A stretch of DNA of 64,000 bases from Sphingobacteriales bacterium (GTDB lineage: Bacteria; Bacteroidota; Bacteroidia; Sphingobacteriales; Sphingobacteriaceae): the NCBI GenBank assembly GCA_025353765.1, contig JANXOD010000008.1, positions 310,001 through 374,000 of the forward strand, in the 5' to 3' direction. The notes beneath the pieces are model-generated. The model was not told the origin of the DNA, did not search any database, and worked only from the letters and a program-made list of their open reading frames with translations. Position numbers and translations under genes: made by a program. Shown here piece by piece: positions 3,132 through 43,902 of the stretch. Each line of letters opens with the position of its first letter. The first letter of the stretch is position 1.

Positions 3132-3159
3132 ATTTAACATAATATTAATTATAGGACAA
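3132..3159. other. Left dif-like attachment site (attL)
   Basis: Reads as an 11-6-11 XerC/XerD-type site: ATTTAACATAA (3132-3142), centre TATTAA (3143-3148), TTATAGGACAA (3149-3159). On the minus strand the first arm reads TTATGTTAAAT, identical to the XerD arm of the E. coli dif site (known sequence). The centre and the right arm recur at 10509-10525 with two differences. The first element gene starts 10 bases further on. Confidence 0.75.
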
Positions 3160-3169
3160 AACTACTATT

Positions 3170-3511
3170 ATGTATCGTTCATTATATTCTCACTATTTTG
3201 ATAAAACCAAACAGCCTAAAACTTTATATCATAAACTTAAACGGTTACTAAAAAAGACGGGCGCGGCTTTTGAGACTTCTAATAAGAGTGTAATTGCTGT
3301 TCGTTCTGGCGTTTTTAAGGGTTTTATTTTTTCTTCTTATAATAGGTATTGTTACATCTATATAGATACTCGTATCGGTTTTAGCTGGTCTTTTTTTGCC
3401 AATGGCTCTATTGAGGTTCTTCTTTATAATCTCTATAAGAATCGTCTATTGTCTCTTGCTGATTACTCTGATTTACTTCAATATATGCCGTATGAAAAGA
3501 AACGTAATTAA
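3170..3511 (+). CDS. Phage-element protein of unknown function, 113 aa
   Basis: First gene of the element, starting at ATG 3170, just after the attachment site. The product is basic at its N terminus (about residues 12-35, many Lys and Arg) and rich in aromatic residues in the middle (about residues 55-80), with no clear signal peptide or membrane span. T-rich codon use matches the rest of the element. It is followed one base later by the next gene, so the two are surely co-transcribed. I do not recognise the family. The basic N terminus could suit nucleic-acid binding, but that is a guess. Confidence 0.65.
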   Translation: MYRSLYSHYFDKTKQPKTLYHKLKRLLKKTGAAFETSNKSVIAVRSGVFKGFIFSSYNRYCYIYIDTRIGFSWSFFANGSIEVLLYNLYKNRLLSLADYSDLLQYMPYEKKRN

Positions 3512-3512
3512 T

Positions 3513-3827
3513 ATGGCTTTCAATGCTTTATGCAATCAGCGTCAAAATGGAAATTTTGGTTTTGAGGCTGAGTACTCGCAGTATACCCATATGCAAGCTA
3601 ACGCTGTTATCGCTATTGAAAAGCATTACAAGCCCCTTGCTGTATTTGAACACCGTTTAAGTGTTCTTGATCTAATATTGATTGTACAGCTTCCAGATAG
3701 AGCTTTGTATAAATTTATTATTGCTCAAAATGGTACTTGGACAAAATGGTGCGTAACTCCTGAATTGGTTGTTGTTCCTAAACCTCAAAAAATAACTGTT
3801 AAATCAACTCAATTAAATCTTTTTTAA
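3513..3827 (+). CDS. Phage-element protein of unknown function, 104 aa
   Basis: The frame is open from 3396, but that part overlaps the previous gene; ATG 3513 (MAFNALCNQRQNG) follows that gene's stop by one base and is preferred. The product is soluble-looking, with alternating hydrophobic stretches around residues 40-70 (LSVLDLILIVQL) and a polar C terminus. Family not recognised. It sits in a chain of six small genes (3170-4442) upstream of rep that ends in a stem-loop terminator, which suggests an early or regulatory module, but this is only context. Confidence 0.6.
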   Translation: MAFNALCNQRQNGNFGFEAEYSQYTHMQANAVIAIEKHYKPLAVFEHRLSVLDLILIVQLPDRALYKFIIAQNGTWTKWCVTPELVVVPKPQKITVKSTQLNLF

Positions 3828-3828
3828 T

Positions 3829-4050
3829 ATGTATCGTGTTAGTCCTTACCCTTGTATGTCTTGTGATATTTCGTGTTCTCCTTCTGATTATTGGCCTTTA
3901 GTCGGTTGTATTTGTCACGGTCGTAATCAGCCTATTTCTCAGATGTTCGCCAATATCGGTTATGCTATGAATAGCTTCTTTTTTTCTGACAATCCCGTTT
4001 TGGTTGATTTAATTATCGATTACGACCTTTCTATTTTAAAATTGAAATGA
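3829..4050 (+). CDS. Cysteine-rich small protein of the phage element, 73 aa
   Basis: Begins one base after the preceding stop. Residues 9-30 carry five cysteines and a histidine in the pattern CMSC, C, CICH, which could form a small zinc-binding site. The C-terminal half is neutral with a short hydrophobic stretch. Its stop overlaps the ATG of the next gene (ATGA at 4047-4050), a typical translational-coupling arrangement. The function is unknown; a zinc-ribbon regulator or replication accessory factor are both possible. Confidence 0.6.
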   Translation: MYRVSPYPCMSCDISCSPSDYWPLVGCICHGRNQPISQMFANIGYAMNSFFFSDNPVLVDLIIDYDLSILKLK

Positions 4051-4193
4051 AAAGACCTATTCTTTATCAGATGTTTTCAGTTCCTGTTCAACATCCATTA
4101 ACTGGCGGTTATATACCTGTATATCAGAGTATTATACCTGTTCTTAAATGTATTTATGTTCGATTTCCTAATCATAAAACGAATAAGAAATGA
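4047..4193 (+). CDS. Small protein of the phage element, 48 aa
   Basis: Starts in an ATGA overlap with the previous gene and ends in another ATGA overlap with the next, which strongly supports translation despite its size. It begins MKRPILYQMFSVPVQHPLTG and has a basic tail (NHKTNKK). There is no membrane span or recognisable domain. Function unknown. Confidence 0.55.
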   Translation: MKRPILYQMFSVPVQHPLTGGYIPVYQSIIPVLKCIYVRFPNHKTNKK

Positions 4194-4270
4194 AAATGAT
4201 CTTTTTTTCTCTGTGCCTCTTAGAGGTTTTGTTTTTGTTATTCGCTATTTATTTACTCTTTAAACACTGA
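4190..4270 (+). CDS. Single-span membrane peptide, 26 aa
   Basis: MKMIFFSLCLLEVLFLLFAI followed by YLLFKH: almost the whole peptide is one hydrophobic helix with a lysine at each end. It overlaps the preceding stop (ATGA, 4190-4193). It could be a membrane component of the virion or a small membrane regulator. Very short, but the coupled start makes it credible. Confidence 0.5.
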   Translation: MKMIFFSLCLLEVLFLLFAIYLLFKH

Positions 4271-4274
4271 GAGC

Positions 4275-4442
4275 ATGAAAAAAACTAAAATTTATGAGGT
4301 ATATGAGGTTGTTTCTGATTCTCTTGCTCCTCGTTTTTTGCGCTATATGTTTGGCTTTTCTACTAAAGCGGATGCCCTTTTGTTTATTCATTCTCCTGAA
4401 AATCTTGACAAAAAATTAACCTATATCAAGGTTTATGAATGA
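4275..4442 (+). CDS. Small protein of the phage element, 55 aa
   Basis: Starts at ATG 4275, four bases after the previous stop, and ends at 4442 just before a strong stem-loop. The sequence begins MKKTKIYEVYEVVSDSLAPR; charged and aromatic, no membrane span. Family not recognised. It is the last gene of the first small-gene module of the element. Confidence 0.5.
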   Translation: MKKTKIYEVYEVVSDSLAPRFLRYMFGFSTKADALLFIHSPENLDKKLTYIKVYE

Positions 4443-4458
4443 TTTTAAGTCTATAAAA

Positions 4459-4482
4459 GAGGGCGTGAAAACGCCCTTCTTA
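4459..4482 (+). terminator. Stem-loop terminator after the first phage-element module
   Basis: GGGCGT (4461-4466), GAAA tetraloop, ACGCCC (4471-4476), flanked by an extra A-T pair and followed by TTCTTAT. A GNRA loop on a GC-rich stem is very stable. The T-run is weak, so it may also serve as a secondary-structure signal on the single-stranded form. Confidence 0.55.
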
Positions 4483-4564
4483 TGGATTTATCTAATGTCT
4501 AACAATTCAAACTCTTTAACAAGCCCGCTCCTAAATTCGCTGCATATGCAAGTAAACCAAGTAT

Positions 4565-4618
4565 TTGAGTATAAAAAAACCCGTAACCTTCTCACAAGTT
4601 ACGGGGTATTGTACTCAA
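4565..4618 (+). other. Extended stem-loop upstream of rep, candidate double-strand origin or rep control element
   Basis: Two nested arm pairs: TTGAGTA (4565-4571) with TACTCAA (4612-4618), and CCCGTAAC (4580-4587) with GTTACGGG (4598-4605). It ends 24 bases before the preferred rep start. HUH Rep proteins nick in or beside such hairpins near their own gene (known for the class). Which base is nicked cannot be told from the sequence. Confidence 0.45.
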
Positions 4619-4642
4619 TTCGTATCACCCACCGTCAAACAA

Positions 4643-5707
4643 ATGATACTCAAACAAAATTGCTTCGTGATAAGCGAAACGGAGTTACAACATTTAGAAG
4701 AAGATACTTACATAAGTCCTGCCAAATCCTTTACCGGTTCGTCTCTATCGCGTAGACAAAATAAAGGTACTGATTTTACTTATAAAGCAAGTAAAGAAAG
4801 GGAACAATTTTCAAATTCTTCCAATTTGACGCCATTCTGTCAGCAATGGAAATCAGCGATTGAGCTGAACCGTTTCTTTGACAAAAGGGATAAAAAAGAG
4901 AATGTAGATCATTCGTTATCTGCTCATTCAAAAACTAAAATCCGTAATAAGATTATAGCTTGGTCAAATTGTATACCAAAGGGTCAAAAAATCAAGTTTA
5001 CGTTCACTACGCTGACACTTACCTCGTCTCAAATTGGTACCGATAAGGACTTTACTAAAATGCAAAACACGCTTTTTACCTATCTGCGTAAGTATTATGG
5101 TTTTAAGCGGTATATGTATGTTTTGGAAAAACAGGCTAATGGAAATATACATTCCCATATTCTGTCTAGTCAGTTCATGCCTCCTATTATTAATAAAATA
5201 TGGTGCAAAATATTGTCTGAGAACGGTTATACATTTAATTTCATTGATTGGAAAACTGGAATTTCTGAAATTCTTACTCCGTTGGAGTGTTTGAGTCGTT
5301 ATGCCTCTTCTGGTAAGTACGATGGCAAATATGGCGCTTATAGTTCAGTTCGTGATAGAAAGGTACATTATCCTAAAAAAAATTGTAATGTCCCCTCCCC
5401 TGTTGACTTTTCGGTGGTTCATGATTTAAAATCTGTTTCCAAATATGTAACCAAGTACATCACTAAAAATACTACGGTGATGCAAACGAATATTTGGAAT
5501 TGTTCTACTTGGGTATCTCGTCTCTGGACAGGTGCAAATATTTGCGCTAAGACGCATTATCTTGCGTTACAACGCTTTACGGTTGGTAAATACGAAAAAA
5601 TCCTTGACAATGGCTATAAGATGAGTGTATACTTGTTGCGTTATTACACACAATTACAAAAAAGTATCTTCTCACAAATAAATAAATACGAACTCAATGC
5701 TACTTAA
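4643..5707 (+). CDS. HUH-family rolling-circle replication initiation protein
   Basis: Rep endonuclease that nicks one strand at the origin and starts rolling-circle synthesis. Counting from ATG 4643 (354 aa), motif 1 is KFTFTTLTLT (about 118-127), the metal-binding HUH motif is NIHSHIL (H170, H172), and the tyrosine motif is KYVTKYITK with Y268 and Y272 spaced like the catalytic tyrosines of this superfamily. The frame is open further upstream to TTG 4565, but that segment coincides with the stem-loop, so the ATG is preferred. The C terminus overlaps the next gene by 11 bases. It is clearly a viral-type Rep; the subgroup (FLiP, microvirus or obscurivirus type) cannot be fixed by eye. Confidence 0.88.
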   Translation: MILKQNCFVISETELQHLEEDTYISPAKSFTGSSLSRRQNKGTDFTYKASKEREQFSNSSNLTPFCQQWKSAIELNRFFDKRDKKENVDHSLSAHSKTKIRNKIIAWSNCIPKGQKIKFTFTTLTLTSSQIGTDKDFTKMQNTLFTYLRKYYGFKRYMYVLEKQANGNIHSHILSSQFMPPIINKIWCKILSENGYTFNFIDWKTGISEILTPLECLSRYASSGKYDGKYGAYSSVRDRKVHYPKKNCNVPSPVDFSVVHDLKSVSKYVTKYITKNTTVMQTNIWNCSTWVSRLWTGANICAKTHYLALQRFTVGKYEKILDNGYKMSVYLLRYYTQLQKSIFSQINKYELNAT

Positions 5708-6458
5708 ATCTGGTGTTACTGGTGTAACAAGTTTTTCTGATCTTCAATGCCAAAAGGGAATTTCTAGTTTACTTATTGTCAAGTCTGGCGCTGCTGGTAT
5801 TGTCAATGAAACTATCAATGTTGCTTTACAGGATGGTTCTGGAAACCAACGCAAAGTTATGACCTTGGTTAAAGTTAGGGATGTTGCCATTTTATCCCAA
5901 TTTGGAAATGGTTATTTATCACAAACTAATCTGGGTGGTGGTGTTATCAAATGTGCTTACATTGTTGAACTTTCTGAAGGTCTTGCCCTTGACCTTAAAG
6001 ATGAAACCTATCTTTCTATTGATATGAATGGTTTGGTTTCTGGTTCTACGTATGATATTTACGGTATCGAATTCCCTTTTTCTGCAAAATCTTACTTAGC
6101 CTATAATACTACTGTTTTAAGTGGTGGTGAAAGTCAACAAAAACAGTATTCTGTTGCTTCCAATGCTTTCGAGATTGGAATACGCAACAATGATTCTTTG
6201 GCTAAGGTTCGTTTCTTTTATGAAAATGGAAGCGAAGTTTCTTATTTACCAGAGGAATTGGCTGCTATTACCCGTGAGCATAATGATATTACACAGGCTG
6301 CCGATAATTTAATTGAAGGTGATTCAATCAATCAAGTTATTTTATCTGGTGCTCAAGAGATGTTTTATTGGAAGCTTGACGGTGTTGTTAAGTTTGAAAT
6401 CACTACCGTTGGCGGTACTGATGTTGTTTTCTTCTTGGTAACTGTAGAGCACTATTGA
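5697..6458 (+). CDS. Candidate major capsid protein of the phage element, 253 aa
   Basis: Largest non-Rep product of the element. The sequence has no signal peptide and no membrane span. It is dominated by short alternating hydrophobic stretches joined by Gly, Ser, Asn and Thr, the pattern of a beta-sandwich protein, with one short acidic helical segment (about 185-205, YLPEELAAITREHND). The size suits a double jelly-roll capsid protein, and a capsid gene directly after rep suits a small phage. Its start overlaps the end of rep, and a terminator follows it. The capsid role is inferred from size, composition and position, not from a recognised motif. A spike or other structural protein is the alternative. 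Confidence 0.55.
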   Translation: MLLKSGVTGVTSFSDLQCQKGISSLLIVKSGAAGIVNETINVALQDGSGNQRKVMTLVKVRDVAILSQFGNGYLSQTNLGGGVIKCAYIVELSEGLALDLKDETYLSIDMNGLVSGSTYDIYGIEFPFSAKSYLAYNTTVLSGGESQQKQYSVASNAFEIGIRNNDSLAKVRFFYENGSEVSYLPEELAAITREHNDITQAADNLIEGDSINQVILSGAQEMFYWKLDGVVKFEITTVGGTDVVFFLVTVEHY

Positions 6459-6475
6459 TTAAATCTTCTCACATT

Positions 6476-6500
6476 CCCCGCCTAAAAACGGGGTTTATTT
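6476..6500 (+). terminator. Stem-loop terminator after the capsid candidate
   Basis: CCCCG (6476-6480) and CGGGG (6489-6493) around an A-rich loop, followed by TTTATTT. It lies between the 253-aa capsid candidate and the membrane-protein gene at 6509. A leaky terminator here would make the upstream product more abundant, as expected for a capsid protein. Confidence 0.65.
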
Positions 6501-6508
6501 AAAATACA

Positions 6509-6859
6509 ATGTTTAAAAAACTCTTTGCAAAAAAACCAGGCGGAACCTTCTTCGGAAACTTGTTGCGTGTTGGTGCTCAAAAATTGTCAGGTGGTGTTAT
6601 GGGTCAAGGTGCGAATATGGTACCTCTTGCTGCTGATGCTCCTGTTGCTCCTCCTACTGTTACGGAAAAAATCATGTCTTCTATGGCCGGTTTGGCTTCT
6701 GAAACTCCGCAAGGAAATAGTATTATAAGCTCCGCAATGATGACTAAGATTAAAGCAAATTTTGCTTGGATTGTTCTTGGTTTGGCTGCTGCAGCTTTTG
6801 GTATTTACTCTTTGGTAAATAAAAATAAATCTAAAAAATTCACTAAAAAACGTTATTAA
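6509..6859 (+). CDS. Phage-element membrane protein with C-terminal span, 116 aa
   Basis: Basic N terminus (MFKKLFAKKPG), a Gly/Ala/Pro-rich middle (about 20-65), one membrane span near residues 85-105 (FAWIVLGLAAAAFGIYSLV) and a very basic tail (NKNKSKKFTKKRY). The plan fits a virion-membrane protein whose basic tail faces the packaged DNA. It is followed by a second, even smaller membrane peptide. No family is recognised; a structural role in an internal lipid membrane is inferred. Confidence 0.65.
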   Translation: MFKKLFAKKPGGTFFGNLLRVGAQKLSGGVMGQGANMVPLAADAPVAPPTVTEKIMSSMAGLASETPQGNSIISSAMMTKIKANFAWIVLGLAAAAFGIYSLVNKNKSKKFTKKRY

Positions 6860-6861
6860 AC

Positions 6862-6966
6862 ATGGAATTCCTAAAAAAGAATTGGGTATTTATTGCTATA
6901 GGTGCGGTATTGCTTCTTACCCCGATCGGTGGTAAATTGTTGGACAAGGTTAAATCTTTATTCTAA
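6862..6966 (+). CDS. Single-span membrane peptide, 34 aa
   Basis: MEFLKKNWVFIAIGAVLLLT, then PIGGKLLDKVKSLF: one hydrophobic helix (about residues 8-21) with Lys on both sides. The ATG is two bases after the previous stop and its TAA shares a base with the next ATG (TAATG, 6964-6968). This tight coupling supports it as a real gene. Probably a minor virion-membrane protein. Confidence 0.6.
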   Translation: MEFLKKNWVFIAIGAVLLLTPIGGKLLDKVKSLF

Positions 6967-7352
6967 TGGCTAGACCTAGAAATGGTGGCTCTCAAACTGG
7001 ATATTCTGCTGACCAGTATGGCCCGCAACAACGAGTTGCTAAGAAACATTCTGGTGCAAAGCATGGAAGTGATAAAAACGGTCAGGTTTATACTTCTGGC
7101 TGGAATTATTCAAAGCGGCATGGATTGGTTACATTTTTATGTGTGCCATATAAAAAGTCTAAACGTGTGACTTCTGCACGTGGTATAGAATGGATTAACG
7201 TAATGGTTAAGATCAAAAAAACTATGTCTGCTAATCAGATCGTTTCTGGAATGATGGATTTTCATTCTGGCCGTGTAATCATTAAGGATTTGGGCTTGGT
7301 TATCAATCCTAAGGCTCCGAACGGTGGTTATTGCGGAACATATAACAAATAA
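6966..7352 (+). CDS. Basic phage-element protein, 128 aa
   Basis: Begins MARPRNGGSQTGYSADQYGP; strongly basic through residues 1-75 (many Lys, Arg and His), then a more structured C-terminal half with alternating hydrophobics (KDLGLVINPKAPNGG). There is no membrane span. Coupled to the preceding gene by a one-base overlap and followed by a terminator. A DNA-binding or packaging role is suggested only by charge and position. Confidence 0.6.
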   Translation: MARPRNGGSQTGYSADQYGPQQRVAKKHSGAKHGSDKNGQVYTSGWNYSKRHGLVTFLCVPYKKSKRVTSARGIEWINVMVKIKKTMSANQIVSGMMDFHSGRVIIKDLGLVINPKAPNGGYCGTYNK

Positions 7353-7373
7353 ATAGTTGTTTTTTCATGTTAG

Positions 7374-7424
7374 AAAAGCCACGTAAACCCGTGATATAAC
7401 CTTTACGGATGTGGCTTTTTTATA
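7374..7424 (+). terminator. Rho-independent terminator within the phage element
   Basis: Left arm AAAAGCCACGTAAA (7374-7387) pairs with TTTAC (7402-7406) and GTGGCTTTT (7411-7419) across a small bulge, followed by a T-run. It splits the structural block (6509-7352) from the lysis block. Confidence 0.75.
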
Positions 7425-7436
7425 AACCTTATTATC

Positions 7437-7574
7437 ATGTTTAAAATATTTAGTAACGTTAAAAGGATAGTTCATGTTACCCAGTATGTTAATTTGATTG
7501 CAGATACTATCAAGTGGTTTCACGATACAGGTGTTGAACGTGGTTTGATTGAACCAGATAAACCTAAGTCGTAA
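7437..7574 (+). CDS. Small phage-element protein, 45 aa
   Basis: Starts MFKIFSNVKRIVHVTQYVNL and ends GLIEPDKPKS. The N-terminal half could form an amphipathic helix. It starts just after the terminator and ends two bases before the next gene. Function unknown; its place directly before the membrane protein and muramidase suggests the lysis or entry block. Confidence 0.5.
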   Translation: MFKIFSNVKRIVHVTQYVNLIADTIKWFHDTGVERGLIEPDKPKS

Positions 7575-7576
7575 TT

Positions 7577-7804
7577 ATGATAGATCATTTAAGAACGTTT
7601 TTGGTTTCTGTTTTTGCTACTAATGTGGTAATTAGTCAAGTTGCTGCCAGTCCTGTTGTTTCAGATGCTTCGCATATCGGTGTTTCTGTTTCTACGCAAA
7701 ACCTTTTGATTAGTTCTTTAACTACAATCATTGTTCAGCTTGGTTTAAAATATTTGGATAGTCGTTCTAAAAGAAAAAGATTAAAAAATGGACTTAACGC
7801 GTAA
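7577..7804 (+). CDS. Membrane protein, holin-like candidate, 75 aa
   Basis: Two hydrophobic stretches, about residues 6-24 and 42-60 (LLISSLTTIIVQLGLKYL), and a short strongly basic tail (SRSKRKRLKNG). Size, two spans, charged C terminus and a 17-base overlap with the muramidase gene all fit a class II holin or a small membrane protein that delivers the lytic enzyme. No motif proves this. It could equally be a virion-membrane protein. Confidence 0.55.
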   Translation: MIDHLRTFLVSVFATNVVISQVAASPVVSDASHIGVSVSTQNLLISSLTTIIVQLGLKYLDSRSKRKRLKNGLNA

Positions 7805-8279
7805 AAATTTTATATTGAGTATTGCTGCTGACGCAATCCATGCCTGTTCTGGAACAAATTTGTTTCCTTCTGTACTGATTGCTCAGGCTTGTTTAGAGGG
7901 AAACAATGGCGTTTCGGTTTTAGCTAAGGATTATAATAATCATTTTGGCATTAAGGCTTCTGCTGCATGGACTGGTAATACGATCATGATGAAAACTTAC
8001 GAGTATATCAACGGAATTAAAAAATCCGTTATGGCTCCCTTCCGTGCTTATTCTACTTTGTATGATGGTTTTAAGGATCGATGTCAGTTTTTAATTGAAA
8101 ATCCCCGTTATTCTGTTGCGGGTGTTTTTGCTGCTTCAACTCCAGAGGCGCAAATAAGGGCAATTAAGAAAAGCGGTTACGCGACTGATCCTAATTATGA
8201 GAATTTGCTTCTTGGTATTTTAAAAACATATAATTTAAAACAGTACGACACCCAGGCGGTGTTAGAAAAAAAAAAATAG
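7788..8279 (+). CDS. GH73-type glucosaminidase (peptidoglycan hydrolase)
   Basis: Cuts peptidoglycan for virus entry or release. The 163-aa protein covers a whole GH73/FlgJ-type domain: PSVLIAQACLEGNNG (about 28-41) contains the presumed catalytic glutamate, followed by NNHFGIKA (about 50-57), YEYINGIKKSVMAPFRAYST and the end of the fold. It lacks a signal peptide. The zero-frame protein ends EKKK-stop inside a run of eleven A residues (8266-8276). The -1 frame beyond it encodes a hydrophobic segment with no start codon of its own, so slippage on the A run would add a membrane anchor. The enzyme class is well supported. Confidence 0.87.
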   Translation: MDLTRKNFILSIAADAIHACSGTNLFPSVLIAQACLEGNNGVSVLAKDYNNHFGIKASAAWTGNTIMMKTYEYINGIKKSVMAPFRAYSTLYDGFKDRCQFLIENPRYSVAGVFAASTPEAQIRAIKKSGYATDPNYENLLLGILKTYNLKQYDTQAVLEKKK

Positions 8280-8347
8280 CGATATTATTATTATTCGCAT
8301 GTGGTCTTGGTTTTCTGATAAGTATATTCAATAATGGCAACAAATAA
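8266..8347 (+). other. A11 slippery run and -1 frame membrane-anchor extension of the muramidase
   Basis: Eleven A residues (8266-8276) precede the zero-frame TAG (8277-8279). In the -1 frame the sequence reads on as IALLLLFACGLGFLISIFNN then GNK and stops at 8345-8347, overlapping the next gene start at 8334. That frame holds no ATG, GTG or TTG after its upstream stop at 8231-8233. Either ribosomal or transcriptional slippage produces an anchored form, or one A is an assembly error and the real gene is 186 residues long. Confidence 0.6.
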
Positions 8348-8867
8348 TAAGTCTTTTAATTTCGAAACTTTCCCTTGGATACCTGTATCCGTTTTTGCGG
8401 TTGTTGCACTTATTGTTTTAAAGAGGATACCCGATTTTTTAAGGGGTTCGGATTATCAGGCTCAAATTTCTGATCCTGTAGCGAAGATTTCTGCAAAGTA
8501 TACTTCTAATAATTCTGTTACTGCTGACGGTCATTTTGTCTCTGGCGCAAAAGTAGTTACAGTCTATACGATCTCACAGGCTCGTTCGGATGCTGAAAGC
8601 TTGGCAAGTTTATTAAAAAAGACAAAAGGTGCTGCTACTGGTTGGTTTGATTTTAACTTTTATTTTGCTTTCTCTCCGCTTCCTGCTAATTTAAAAAAGA
8701 TACTTGACCCGGGTTTTCCTGTTGCCTATCGCCGTTATGTAGTAGAAGTTTACAGAGATGTTTTTACAGATAAAAGGTCTTTATCTAGTGATGTTCGTTC
8801 TGCTTTAACTGGCTTTGCCGGTTCTTCTGAATGGGATAATAATTTAACGAAATACTTTATAATTTAA
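8334..8867 (+). CDS. Phage-element protein with N-terminal membrane anchor, 177 aa
   Basis: One hydrophobic span at about residues 14-34 (WIPVSVFAVVALIVL) followed by a 140-residue soluble domain with mixed alpha/beta character and several aromatic clusters (GWFDFNFYFAFSP). The short N terminus has no clear cleavage site, so it is a membrane-anchored protein rather than an exported one. The start overlaps the extension frame of the muramidase. A virion-membrane or DNA-delivery protein is a reasonable guess; no family recognised. Confidence 0.62.
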   Translation: MATNNKSFNFETFPWIPVSVFAVVALIVLKRIPDFLRGSDYQAQISDPVAKISAKYTSNNSVTADGHFVSGAKVVTVYTISQARSDAESLASLLKKTKGAATGWFDFNFYFAFSPLPANLKKILDPGFPVAYRRYVVEVYRDVFTDKRSLSSDVRSALTGFAGSSEWDNNLTKYFII

Positions 8868-8877
8868 TTAATATATT

Positions 8878-9420
8878 ATGGGTCTCATTATTAATGATGG
8901 TTTGCTGTCAAATCCAGCTAATGTCTTTCTTACTCCTGTTATCGCTGTCTCGTCGATGGTTTCTATCGGTGATACGTCGATTTCTTTTACTCATAATTTC
9001 TGGGGGGATCTCAATACTTCACTTGCCGCTATTAGTCTGCTTTATCGGGATACCGTCACAGGTGATATTTTGGGTTCGTCTCTCGTTTCTCCTTCCTTGT
9101 TTAAGGATATTGTTTGTACATCAGCTCCTAATCCTTCTGCTTTGGGCGTTTCTATGAAATATAATTATGATTTGTTGCAATTAAAGGGTTTTGGCGCTAA
9201 TGGTTATATTGGCGTTGATCCGAGGTTTATTTCGCCATCTAACAACTGTGTTATCCAGGGTCTCCCTGCTTTCTCTCAGGATTATGATGTTCTTGTTCGC
9301 TTTCTCTCTGTTGGTAATTATGCTAATCTATTTACTGCTACCCTTGAACAAGATACTGCTTTGTCTGTTGTTTCTGGTGTTTCTGTTCAACCTTTAACTA
9401 ATTATTATCAAAAATCTTAA
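8878..9420 (+). CDS. Beta-rich phage-element protein, 180 aa (possible second structural protein)
   Basis: No signal or membrane segment. The sequence is rich in Val, Ser, Thr, Gly and Asn, with regular alternation of hydrophobic residues and few helices, so a beta-sandwich is likely. In T-rich codon use and composition it resembles the 253-aa capsid candidate. It may be a minor capsid, penton or spike protein. Its place at the end of the structural block supports this. The role is inferred; no motif recognised. Confidence 0.58.
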   Translation: MGLIINDGLLSNPANVFLTPVIAVSSMVSIGDTSISFTHNFWGDLNTSLAAISLLYRDTVTGDILGSSLVSPSLFKDIVCTSAPNPSALGVSMKYNYDLLQLKGFGANGYIGVDPRFISPSNNCVIQGLPAFSQDYDVLVRFLSVGNYANLFTATLEQDTALSVVSGVSVQPLTNYYQKS

Positions 9421-9422
9421 CT

Positions 9423-9773
9423 ATGGAAGAACAAAAAAGTTATGCAAGGTTAAAGCATTTATATTATGAAATAGATAATACTAGTGTCTCTGATGATTTG
9501 CTTATCGATATTCAAAAAGATCATTTGATTGTTGATTTGATTATGCCCGAGATTGCTCAATCTGTTCAGGATACTATTACTGTTTTAAATTTAAAGCCGT
9601 ATGAACTAGCCGTTAGTAAGTTTACACAGTCTCCTTATTTATTTGATGTCATGCAAATTAATTCACCTGGCAATCGTACGATTAAGGGTATGCAGACTCT
9701 TATTTCTAATACGAATAATACAAATGGAAAATGCCCAATTATTATAGTTTATTTAGAATTTCAACAAAGTTAA
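9423..9773 (+). CDS. Phage-element protein of unknown function, 116 aa
   Basis: Starts two bases after the previous stop. Soluble and acidic at the N terminus, with an alternating hydrophobic C-terminal end (CPIIIVYLEFQ). It may pair with the preceding beta-rich protein as part of a virion vertex, but that rests only on adjacency. Family not recognised. Confidence 0.58.
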   Translation: MEEQKSYARLKHLYYEIDNTSVSDDLLIDIQKDHLIVDLIMPEIAQSVQDTITVLNLKPYELAVSKFTQSPYLFDVMQINSPGNRTIKGMQTLISNTNNTNGKCPIIIVYLEFQQS

Positions 9774-9774
9774 T

Positions 9775-9957
9775 ATGATCGATATAAAAAGAATTTTTGA
9801 AGACGGTACAACTGATACCACTACGCATAAAAGTGTAAAAGCTTTCGAGTCCTCTAAGCATGCAAAAGTAGGTGGTTTAAAGGCTTATCAAATAATTGAT
9901 ACCATAACTAAGGCTATTATTTCTATGGTCTTGTTAGTCAAAACCGTAAAAGGTTAG
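9775..9957 (+). CDS. Small phage-element protein, 60 aa
   Basis: Starts one base after the previous stop. Begins MIDIKRIFEDGTTDTTTHKS; the C-terminal third (about 40-57) is hydrophobic (DTITKAIISMVLLVKTV) and could insert in a membrane. Last gene of the T-rich block, followed by a non-coding region with strong secondary structure. Confidence 0.55.
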   Translation: MIDIKRIFEDGTTDTTTHKSVKAFESSKHAKVGGLKAYQIIDTITKAIISMVLLVKTVKG

Positions 9958-10000
9958 GATTTCGTACTCATTTTTGTTAAGCCACCAACTGCGGAAGTGA

Positions 10001-10057
10001 ATAAGCATGTCAAGGGCGACCCCCTTCGGGTCGTTTATATACCCTTTACGTGCTTAT
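10001..10057 (+). other. Nested hairpin in a non-coding region, candidate replication or packaging signal
   Basis: Three perfect arm pairs lie in order: ATAAGCA (10001-10007) with TGCTTAT (10051-10057), AAGGG (10012-10016) with CCCTT (10042-10046), CGACCC (10017-10022) with GGGTCG (10028-10033). The region 9958-10235 has no convincing gene. In ssDNA replicons such a structure commonly acts as the complementary-strand origin or packaging signal (known for the class). Termination of the long upstream transcript is another possible role. Confidence 0.55.
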
Positions 10058-10235
10058 GAGCGTAGCAATCTTCGCTGTTACAAACATGAATACATGCGCT
10101 GCGTGCAACTTCTGTCCCCTTTTTTGACCTCTTCTGGCTTTTTTAAAAATATTTGTAACATTTTTGTTGTTATTCGAAATAATGTTTTTATATTTATTTC
10201 AATTCTCACAAATTAATTGATTAACACCGTCAAGT

Positions 10236-10454
10236 ATGTCAAAACTAAAAGCTACAACCTTTAACAGGTTGTCTATTCAGGAACAAGCCCGTTTCTGTTT
10301 GAAAATCGAAAACTTTACAGCCCTTCCTGATCTCGTCGAAAAGTTGAGCGAGCTAAACCCGATTATCTCGCATGATAAATCCAATCGGTTTACGCTTCAC
10401 TCCGATCGTGATGTATTTTCAATCGGCAAAATCCGCCGATCTGTCGTTAATTAA
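10236..10454 (+). CDS. Small protein near the right end of the phage element, 72 aa
   Basis: Begins MSKLKATTFNRLSIQEQARF; basic, helical-looking, no membrane span. Its codon use is less T-rich than the rest of the element. It stands apart after the structured non-coding region and ends 43 bases before the right attachment site. Such end-located genes in integrated elements are often regulators or superinfection-exclusion functions, but nothing in the sequence shows which. It may also be a host or moron gene. Confidence 0.5.
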   Translation: MSKLKATTFNRLSIQEQARFCLKIENFTALPDLVEKLSELNPIISHDKSNRFTLHSDRDVFSIGKIRRSVVN

Positions 10455-10497: not shown

Positions 10498-10525
10498 ATA
10501 ACACATACTATTAATTATAAGACAG
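10498..10525. other. Right dif-like attachment site (attR)
   Basis: Arms ATAACACATAC (10498-10508) and TTATAAGACAG (10515-10525) around TATTAA (10509-10514). The centre and right arm match the left site; the left arm is diverged. This is the pattern expected if each junction is a hybrid of a chromosomal dif-like site and a phage site. Confidence 0.7.
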
Positions 10526-10762: not shown

Positions 10763-11362
10763 TTACCTACCTTTATTAATTGCATTCTTTCGATTTTTAA
10801 TCATATTATTTATTGCTGTAGCAGAATCGAGATGGGTTCTTAAAACAGGCAATATTTTAAATGCGAATATACTCACGGTGGTATCTTGCGATTTTGAGGC
10901 TTTTTCAAACAGATTAATATCATTTTTATGATCATCAACCATCATATTCATATATTTTTCATCAAAATCTGCTCCTCTAATTTTGCTTAAATCACCTACC
11001 TTTTTTTGATCATCTTCACCAAGAGCGGTTGGCAAAGTGATTCCCTTGGATACAGCTAATGTTTTCAAATCCTGATTAATCTTATCATGATCTTTAATCA
11101 TCATTGTTCCAAAATTTTTAACACGTGAATTTTGAGCGTTCTGTTGATCTATCTGGCCTAGCTTTACCTCTGTCATCCCTCCACTTGCGGCTTTAACCAT
11201 AAATTCAGAGACTTCTTTATTAATATCTTCCTTCTTTTCATTAACATTTTCGGCATTTTTTACGTTGTCATTTCTTCTGGAATTATTGCAGGCCACATAT
11301 AAAGAGCTGCCTAACAAGACGGCCATCAGTAACGAATAATTTTTAATTTTTAACTTTTTCAT
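10763..11362 (-). CDS. DUF4142 lipoprotein
   Basis: The N terminus has a lipoprotein signal ending at the lipobox Cys (SLYVAC, C25). A charged linker (about 28-50) is followed by a ferritin-like four-helix domain of the DUF4142 family, with EFMVKAASGGMTEVKLG (about 53-69), MMIKDHDKIN and the later DHKNDINLFEKASK. The family is common, often duplicated, in Bacteroidota and proteobacteria; its function is not established. The 237 bases between it and the phage site hold no gene that I can support, only a near-tandem repeat of CAGTACTTTAATAC at 10734-10760. Confidence 0.85.
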   Translation of the reverse strand: MKKLKIKNYSLLMAVLLGSSLYVACNNSRRNDNVKNAENVNEKKEDINKEVSEFMVKAASGGMTEVKLGQIDQQNAQNSRVKNFGTMMIKDHDKINQDLKTLAVSKGITLPTALGEDDQKKVGDLSKIRGADFDEKYMNMMVDDHKNDINLFEKASKSQDTTVSIFAFKILPVLRTHLDSATAINNMIKNRKNAINKGR

Positions 11363-43743: not shown

Positions 43744-43902
43744 TATTAGCCTGATTTGCAGGAACAGATTTGGGCGTTGGGGTGGGCTTCGTTACAATCT
43801 TTTTGCAAAAAGGCAAAAAGGATTTTCACTACAATCCCTAACTCAAAAACTTATTTACTCCAACATTTGTGATGGGTGTAAATCATAAACTGATGAATAA
43901 AG

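Follow-up and report, generated by a model that had tools for sequence, protein, structure and literature searches.

Few single-stranded DNA (ssDNA) phages with double jelly-roll (DJR) capsids are known, and they are used in reasoning on the origin of the Bamfordvirae. The closest described systems to the locus studied here are phiCjT23 of Flavobacterium and its relatives: the part of Kejzar et al. (2022; PMC9719478) available to us reports 57 putative phiCjT23-like prophages of Flavobacterium, integrated at dif and 6021-8407 bp long. The same part gives the phiCjT23 vertex as a single protein, P13, and that of FLiP (Finnlakeviridae) as a separate penton and spike. A further group, the Obscuriviridae of Cellulophaga (phi12:2, phi12a:1, Omtje; phi18:4 is close to phi12a:1), was isolated as free phages, and PM2 (Corticoviridae) is grouped with dsDNA phages that have a packaging ATPase (PMC5894146, in the portion available).

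Here we analyze a window of 64,000 nucleotides (the whole stretch of DNA presented above) from a member of the Sphingobacteriaceae, in which an open reading frame (ORF) at 5697-6458 had been proposed, in a preliminary description, as a candidate DJR capsid protein. From sequence homology and structural models, we conclude that this ORF almost certainly encodes a DJR major capsid protein (MCP). Judged from these sequences and models, with a probability of roughly 0.95, it is the MCP of a phiCjT23-kind prophage, a temperate ssDNA phage with an icosahedral shell that probably contains lipid. In such a phage, three MCP copies would form a pseudo-hexagonal capsomer that tiles the shell, and the shell (pseudo T=21 in phiCjT23) would enclose a membrane vesicle with the circular ssDNA, the lipid membrane being presumed by analogy with the relatives. 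Products of neighboring genes would connect the shell with this membrane and occupy its vertices, and the genome would be replicated as a rolling circle from Rep. Because no integrase or other recombinase is recognized among the ten element ORFs scanned with Pfam and PHROGs, integration would presumably use the host XerC and XerD recombinases.

The capsid gene and the element that carries it

The capsid gene starts with an ATG at 5697 and its stop codon ends at 6458, giving 253 aa, exactly the extent first noted (all features of the element described here lie on the + strand). Its first 11 bases are at the same time the end of the rep frame (4565-5707). Its length exceeds the chance expectation: the longest ORF in 50 first-order Markov sequences of element length was 172 aa, and the mean of the longest was 99.7 aa. 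Aligned with the homologue from Pedobacter jeongneungensis over 252 codons, the gene has 109, 83 and 148 mismatches at the first, second and third codon positions, and among the 114 residues that are identical, leaving Met and Trp aside, 63 are encoded by a different codon; the ORF evolves as a protein. It had also been credited with a terminator of its own. A terminator-like hairpin is indeed present 3' of the gene at 6476-6493 (-8.6 kcal/mol), but it is weak (z -2.15) and its advantage is modest, as 8 of 200 shuffles fold equally well or better.

The gene is part of an element of about 7.4 kb (7,366 bases start to start) between an intact dif at 3132-3158 and a dif-like site at 10498-10524. 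In it, rep, the MCP gene and the genes of minor virion proteins follow one another in this order, and gene order is shared with two Pedobacter elements (L012, L014) and one Mucilaginibacter element (L013). The first ORF (3170-3511) encodes a conserved early protein with phmmer matches at similar position in these three elements (E 2e-6 to 2e-3), and the second (3396-3827), which is probably translated from an ATG inside the frame, matches only the element of Pedobacter nototheniae (phmmer E 3e-5). The rolling-circle Rep (4565-5707), likely starting at ATG 4643, matches Pfam PF23343 (REP_ORF2-G2P; 47.8 bits against a cut-off of 27.8) and PHROG 3419, rolling circle DNA replication initiation. 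Behind the capsid gene, a minor virion protein (6509-6859) matches PHROG 20088 (virion structural protein) and carries an N-terminal KKPGGTFFGNLLR motif (KKPGGTFFGN-type) and a C-terminal hydrophobic segment; it may serve as the membrane anchor of the shell. Its phmmer matches are in FLiP (3992-4363, annotated structural; E 4e-9), Omtje and phi18:4 (2394-2816, structural by MS/MS per its record). Both Pedobacter elements also have a short ORF upstream of rep with a second KKPGGT-type N-terminus (L012 8564-8755, L014 8570-8764), matching the window protein at phmmer E 2e-5 and 4e-4. The next gene (6966-7352) encodes a conserved virion-region protein homologous to phiCjT23 gp7 (phmmer E 4e-11) and linked, via a Pedobacter homologue, to phi18:4 pg6, which is structural by MS/MS; against the PDB it gives no row at E up to 5. 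A strong hairpin with a U-run follows at 7371-7422 (-23.9 kcal/mol and z -7.84 for 7360-7430 as folded) and is likely a transcription terminator.

Beyond this hairpin lie a small conserved ORF of 45 aa (7437-7574; matches in the two Pedobacter elements and in Mucilaginibacter), a small hydrophobic ORF without a PHROG or Pfam family match (7577-7804), which by position and composition may be holin-like, and a lytic enzyme of the glucosaminidase family (7788-8279; PF01832, 105.1 bits against a cut-off of 30.2; PHROG endolysins). By phmmer, the glucosaminidase has homologues in both Pedobacter elements and none was found in the Mucilaginibacter element, whose lytic-enzyme slot (L013 12919-13500) presumably holds a lysozyme-like protein instead, judged by eye. 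The protein at 8334-8867, with an N-terminal hydrophobic segment, is a weak, indirect counterpart of phiCjT23 gp12: both match the same ORF of prophage G833 (10826-11356), at phmmer E 7e-4 for the window protein and E 2e-13 for gp12, and a direct match between the two is absent. Past the vertex candidates discussed below, a small conserved ORF (9775-9957) and the last conserved ORF of the element (10236-10454) have matches in both Pedobacter elements. Between them, a long hairpin (10001-10057; z -5.01 for 9960-10060 as folded) may be a replication origin or packaging signal, and no counterpart is apparent in the compared regions of relatives. The four hairpins at 4450-4486, 4565-4618, 7371-7422 and 10001-10057 are more stable than shuffled sequence, with z between -4.3 and -7.8 for the folded stretches. 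Neither of the two Rfam matches that the window has at gathering thresholds falls within the element; a Flavo-1 RNA is matched at 43776-43847 (-) with 44.1 bits against a gathering score of 42.

Could the element be a decayed or domesticated remnant, in which the capsid gene is intact and particle formation is lost? The lack of a recognizable spike and the uncertain start codon of Rep leave this explanation some room. We nevertheless consider it unlikely, since the ORFs with homologues are open, the two Pedobacter elements keep most of them in this order and the Mucilaginibacter element fewer, third-position change in the MCP gene exceeds second-position change, and both att copies are still present.

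Sequence relatives and predicted fold of the capsid protein

Searched by tblastn against 50,697 phage records, the capsid protein matches 12, namely phiCjT23 and 11 Cellulophaga records, and the genes under these matches are annotated as major capsid or structural protein. Across 94% of the query, 25.7% of residues are identical to those of the phiCjT23 MCP (E 5e-11); for the MCPs of the Obscuriviridae the identity is 25-29%. Against the PDB, phmmer returns phiCjT23 P5 (7zzz) at E 2.4e-15 and one other, weak row (E 0.072). Among the PHROGs the protein matches 20547, annotated virion structural protein (E 1.2e-14), and Pfam, scanned as far as E 1, yields no family. Profile-profile comparison of four MCPs of the family with five prophage MCPs of g29, a genus that we take to be Flavobacterium because it holds MCPs nearly identical to that of phiCjT23, gives a probability of 97.6 and E 3.3e-12 over 228 columns. 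The protein had been described as lacking recognizable sequence similarity; this is wrong for phiCjT23 and correct only for FLiP gp8, against which hhalign gives a probability of 0.6.

Relatives at 43-47% identity are found in Pedobacter and Mucilaginibacter, in the host's own family. A search with the MCP sequence itself finds matches in 4 of 399 genomes of that family, the window's own included. The MCP profile matches the same 4 among 400 genomes of the host's order, 6 of 395 phylum-wide, where one match is weak and covers part of the protein, and 16 of 199 within g29, the genus of G741; before this search L004, L008-L011 and L022 (weak, E 5.7e-5) were left out. A 27-row MCP tree, from which L005, L006, L007, L017, L018, FLiP and identical sequences were left out after the profile search, groups the window with the Pedobacter and Mucilaginibacter proteins (support 100/100); where it falls inside this group is less certain (93/75), and rooting was by midpoint only. 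Scans of IMG/VR with the window MCP, the phiCjT23 MCP and queries A2 and A4 returned no relative of the respective query, and query A1 returned two contigs; at the scan sensitivity used, the window clade was not seen there as a free virus.

How far does the likeness to phiCjT23 extend? The element has an MCP homologous to P5, a replication initiation gene closely followed by the MCP gene, the gp7 homologue and the indirect gp12 link, dif at both ends with the same CATAC phage arm and no integrase of its own among the ten ORFs scanned, and its length lies within the published range. It differs in the low identity of the MCP (about 26%), in its Rep, which is of PF23343 rather than of the ORF3 type (Rep_trans), in the undetected spike P13 and in its host, a member of the family of Pedobacter and Mucilaginibacter rather than Flavobacterium; a glucosaminidase is recognized in the element and none is annotated in the phiCjT23 record (a comparison of annotation only). 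Because the published criterion, in the part of PMC9719478 available to us, asks for a replication initiation protein, the different Rep family bars identity of the Rep and not of the capsid lineage. The Obscuriviridae share with the window element a homologous MCP, the KKPGGTFFGN-type protein and an annotated glucosaminidase, and phi18:4 and Omtje have a dif-like site at 5 mismatches; their Rep is of Rep_trans type. By phmmer, two window proteins match Omtje and phi18:4, and the remaining window ORFs have no match there at E 0.01.

Membership in the FLiP family (Finnlakeviridae) instead of the phiCjT23 group might be argued from the match of the 6509-6859 protein to the FLiP structural protein and from FLiP-like putative prophages published for three Sphingobacteriia genomes (PMC13269007, in the part available). 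We hold it very improbable: the FLiP MCP is larger (311 against 253 aa) and without sequence similarity to the window MCP, the FLiP Rep belongs to Phage_CRI (PF05144) and is annotated far from the MCP, and a search of FLiP allowing 2 mismatches finds no dif-like core. FLiP is rejected as the nearest relative in sequence, given its absence from the 12 tblastn records and the hhalign result above. In sum of position and kind, the window element is a phiCjT23-kind prophage in the host group of the FLiP-like prophages reported in that part of PMC13269007.

The AlphaFold2 model of the MCP, made from an alignment of six sequences, is of low confidence (mean pLDDT 61.6, pTM 0.51). It has 16 strands of at least three residues and one helix of at least four, in agreement with the beta-rich composition first ascribed to the protein, and two consecutive jelly-roll domains are predicted in the one chain. 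Foldseek places just two structures below 1e-3, phiCjT23 P5 (7zzz; 1.6e-14) and PM2 P2 (1.3e-6), with the third row at E 2.1e-3 and probability 0.23; the superposition on 7zzz is poor (TM 0.47, 10.2 Å). When VIA-align is run on Foldseek's list, ranks 1-10 are DJR capsids exclusively, covering residues 1 or 5 to 253: 7zzz (Z 11.0, 204 residues, 8.2 Å), the FLiP MCP 5oac (Z 10.4, 206 residues, 9.4 Å) and, also within these ranks, PRD1/PR772 (Z 8.7-9.2), PBCV-1 (8.0) and STIV (7.9). Beta-sandwiches of non-capsid kind begin at rank 11 and PM2 P2 stands at rank 21 (Z 7.3), where values of Z below 8 (STIV, PM2 P2) may reflect a common arrangement only. Half of the model fits better, residues 1-128 superposing on the PBCV-1 capsid 5tip at 3.0 Å over 113 residues; this and the large rmsd values suggest that the two domains of the model are loosely placed relative to each other. 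The comparison with FLiP gp8 and PM2 P2 that had been suggested as a check thus came out in favor of the DJR proposal, which is supported both by the Foldseek and VIA-align matches and by homology to a solved DJR protein; since the model is of low confidence, the homology carries most weight. Alternatively, the ORF might encode a minor capsid or spike protein with one jelly roll or some other beta-sandwich fold, and not the major shell protein. One could cite for this the low model confidence and the matches of one model half to non-capsid beta-sandwiches lower in the VIA-align list, but it is scarcely credible against the top ten rows and the near full-length homology to phiCjT23 P5, a 'major capsid protein' in both PDB and GenBank.

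The junctions at dif

The intact dif at the left junction is the sole match in the window at up to 3 mismatches (0 expected), and the right junction is recognized as a 22-nt direct repeat (91%). There the center and right arm are intact and the left (XerD-type) arm is degenerate, where we assume that resemblance to E. coli dif tells the XerC arm from the XerD arm. The core of this junction is CATACTATTAATTATA, and the same core, with W in the center, occurs in phiCjT23 and phi18:4. In the window's own genome, a shortened dif form at up to 3 mismatches has one match, as has the backwards control. Among 20 genomes of the host genus, the motif TTAACATAATATTAATTATANGACA is found once each in 16 at up to 2 mismatches, and the backwards-pattern control gives one match each in 2.

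Flank genes of the element lie beside dif at 12 of 15 other loci of the host genus. The right-flank gene (85-97% identical), which we take to encode a cold-shock protein, is found at 10 of the 15, and the left-flank genes, presumably for a response regulator and a Ku-like protein, at 2; neither flank is found at 3, two of which are short, at contig ends. Both flanks joined at an empty dif were found at none of the 15 loci, and the gene adjoining the right junction, in our view DUF4142-like, is near dif at none of them. Because its flank genes lie beside dif in relatives, the element sits in the dif neighborhood of the host genus. The GC-skew maximum of the contig is 45-52 kb away, on a broad plateau.

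The core CATACTATWAATTATA is exact in the phage-side copy of the window, in the free phiCjT23 genome, in phi18:4 and in 5 of the 8 g29 prophages examined (G985, G863, G970, G833, G959), and also at the single site found in G524. It occurs with one mismatch in G937 and G741 and with two in G818; a one-mismatch core is weak evidence, because the intact dif itself differs by one. In the phage-side copy the center and the XerC arm agree with dif and the XerD arm is degenerate, so that integration may follow the route of TLCphi of Vibrio, whose center and XerC arm likewise match dif next to a degenerate XerD arm (PMC4246890, in the part available). In the two Pedobacter elements (L012 15394, L014 15737), the Mucilaginibacter element (L013 15881) and prophage G737 (L075 11449), it is the XerD arm that survives in the second copy, and the XerC arm is lost. 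This is the reverse of the loss in the window element and phiCjT23, so two modes of integration may exist within one phage group.

Replication proteins, candidate vertex genes and possible exchange of modules

The Reps scanned in the window's clade (window, L012 and L013) all belong to PF23343, above its cut-off. On Rep_trans (cut-off 29.6 bits), phiCjT23 (24.2) and Omtje (29.2) both score below the cut-off and prophage G970 (36.6) above it. Prophage G937 (L070 5655-7001) has a phiCjT23-type MCP with a Rep_1 (PF01446) protein, at 48.8 versus 33.2 bits. The Reps of G959 and G737 match no Pfam family at 0.01, and the window Rep has no phmmer match to the phiCjT23 Rep (gp3) at E 0.01. Since Reps of different Pfam families stand beside homologous MCPs, the MCP lineage is, on these profile matches, paired with no fewer than three families of Rep (PF23343, Rep_trans and Rep_1), which may themselves share a remote common ancestry. 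A Rep search in 20 genomes of the host genus gives 4 with matches, the window's own and three with stretches of 38-45 residues; these short matches (L009, L010, L011; E 2.8e-6 to 4.6e-5) possibly mark other Rep-bearing elements. We noticed no description of capsid/Rep exchange in the available parts of PMC9719478, PMC5894146 and PMC13269007.

By phmmer, no homologue of the phiCjT23 spike P13, a protein with a small beta-barrel penton domain, is found in the window element. The ORF in the phiCjT23 spike-gene slot (8878-9420) is, by position, a candidate spike; by phmmer and alignment it shows no similarity to the ORFs that occupy this slot in the three relatives, and it has no PHROG or Pfam match. 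Its search against the PDB returned one row, an unrelated phycoerythrin at E 0.84. The following ORF (9423-9773) encodes a clade-conserved protein of 116 aa with homologues in all three relatives and is a candidate penton base. Its model (pLDDT 84.8) matches nothing significantly in the PDB (best Foldseek E 0.18, best VIA-align Z 4.5); the phiCjT23 penton domain is not among the matches listed for this model, which excludes nothing. A separate penton with an exchangeable spike in the window clade is plausible but unproven.

We tentatively suggest that these elements represent temperate, lipid-containing ssDNA phages of the Sphingobacteriaceae that make up a family-level group of their own, in which a phiCjT23-type DJR capsid is combined with a rolling-circle Rep of another family, and a conserved small penton (9423-9773) with a freely exchanged spike (8878-9420) replaces the one-piece vertex; we regard this as possible, with the odds somewhat against it. 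If true, the DJR shell would be a portable module among ssDNA replicons.

In the parts of the literature searched, we noticed no earlier report of phiCjT23-like elements in the Sphingobacteriaceae. The capsid itself is unsurprising, and the recombination of capsid and Rep is the most interesting part; for specialists, the points of interest are the Rep exchange and the host range. A Pedobacter or Mucilaginibacter lysogen could serve as a second experimental system. By placing the phiCjT23 capsid lineage in a second bacterial family and beside another family of Rep, this clade makes it possible to test whether capsid and replication modules descend independently.
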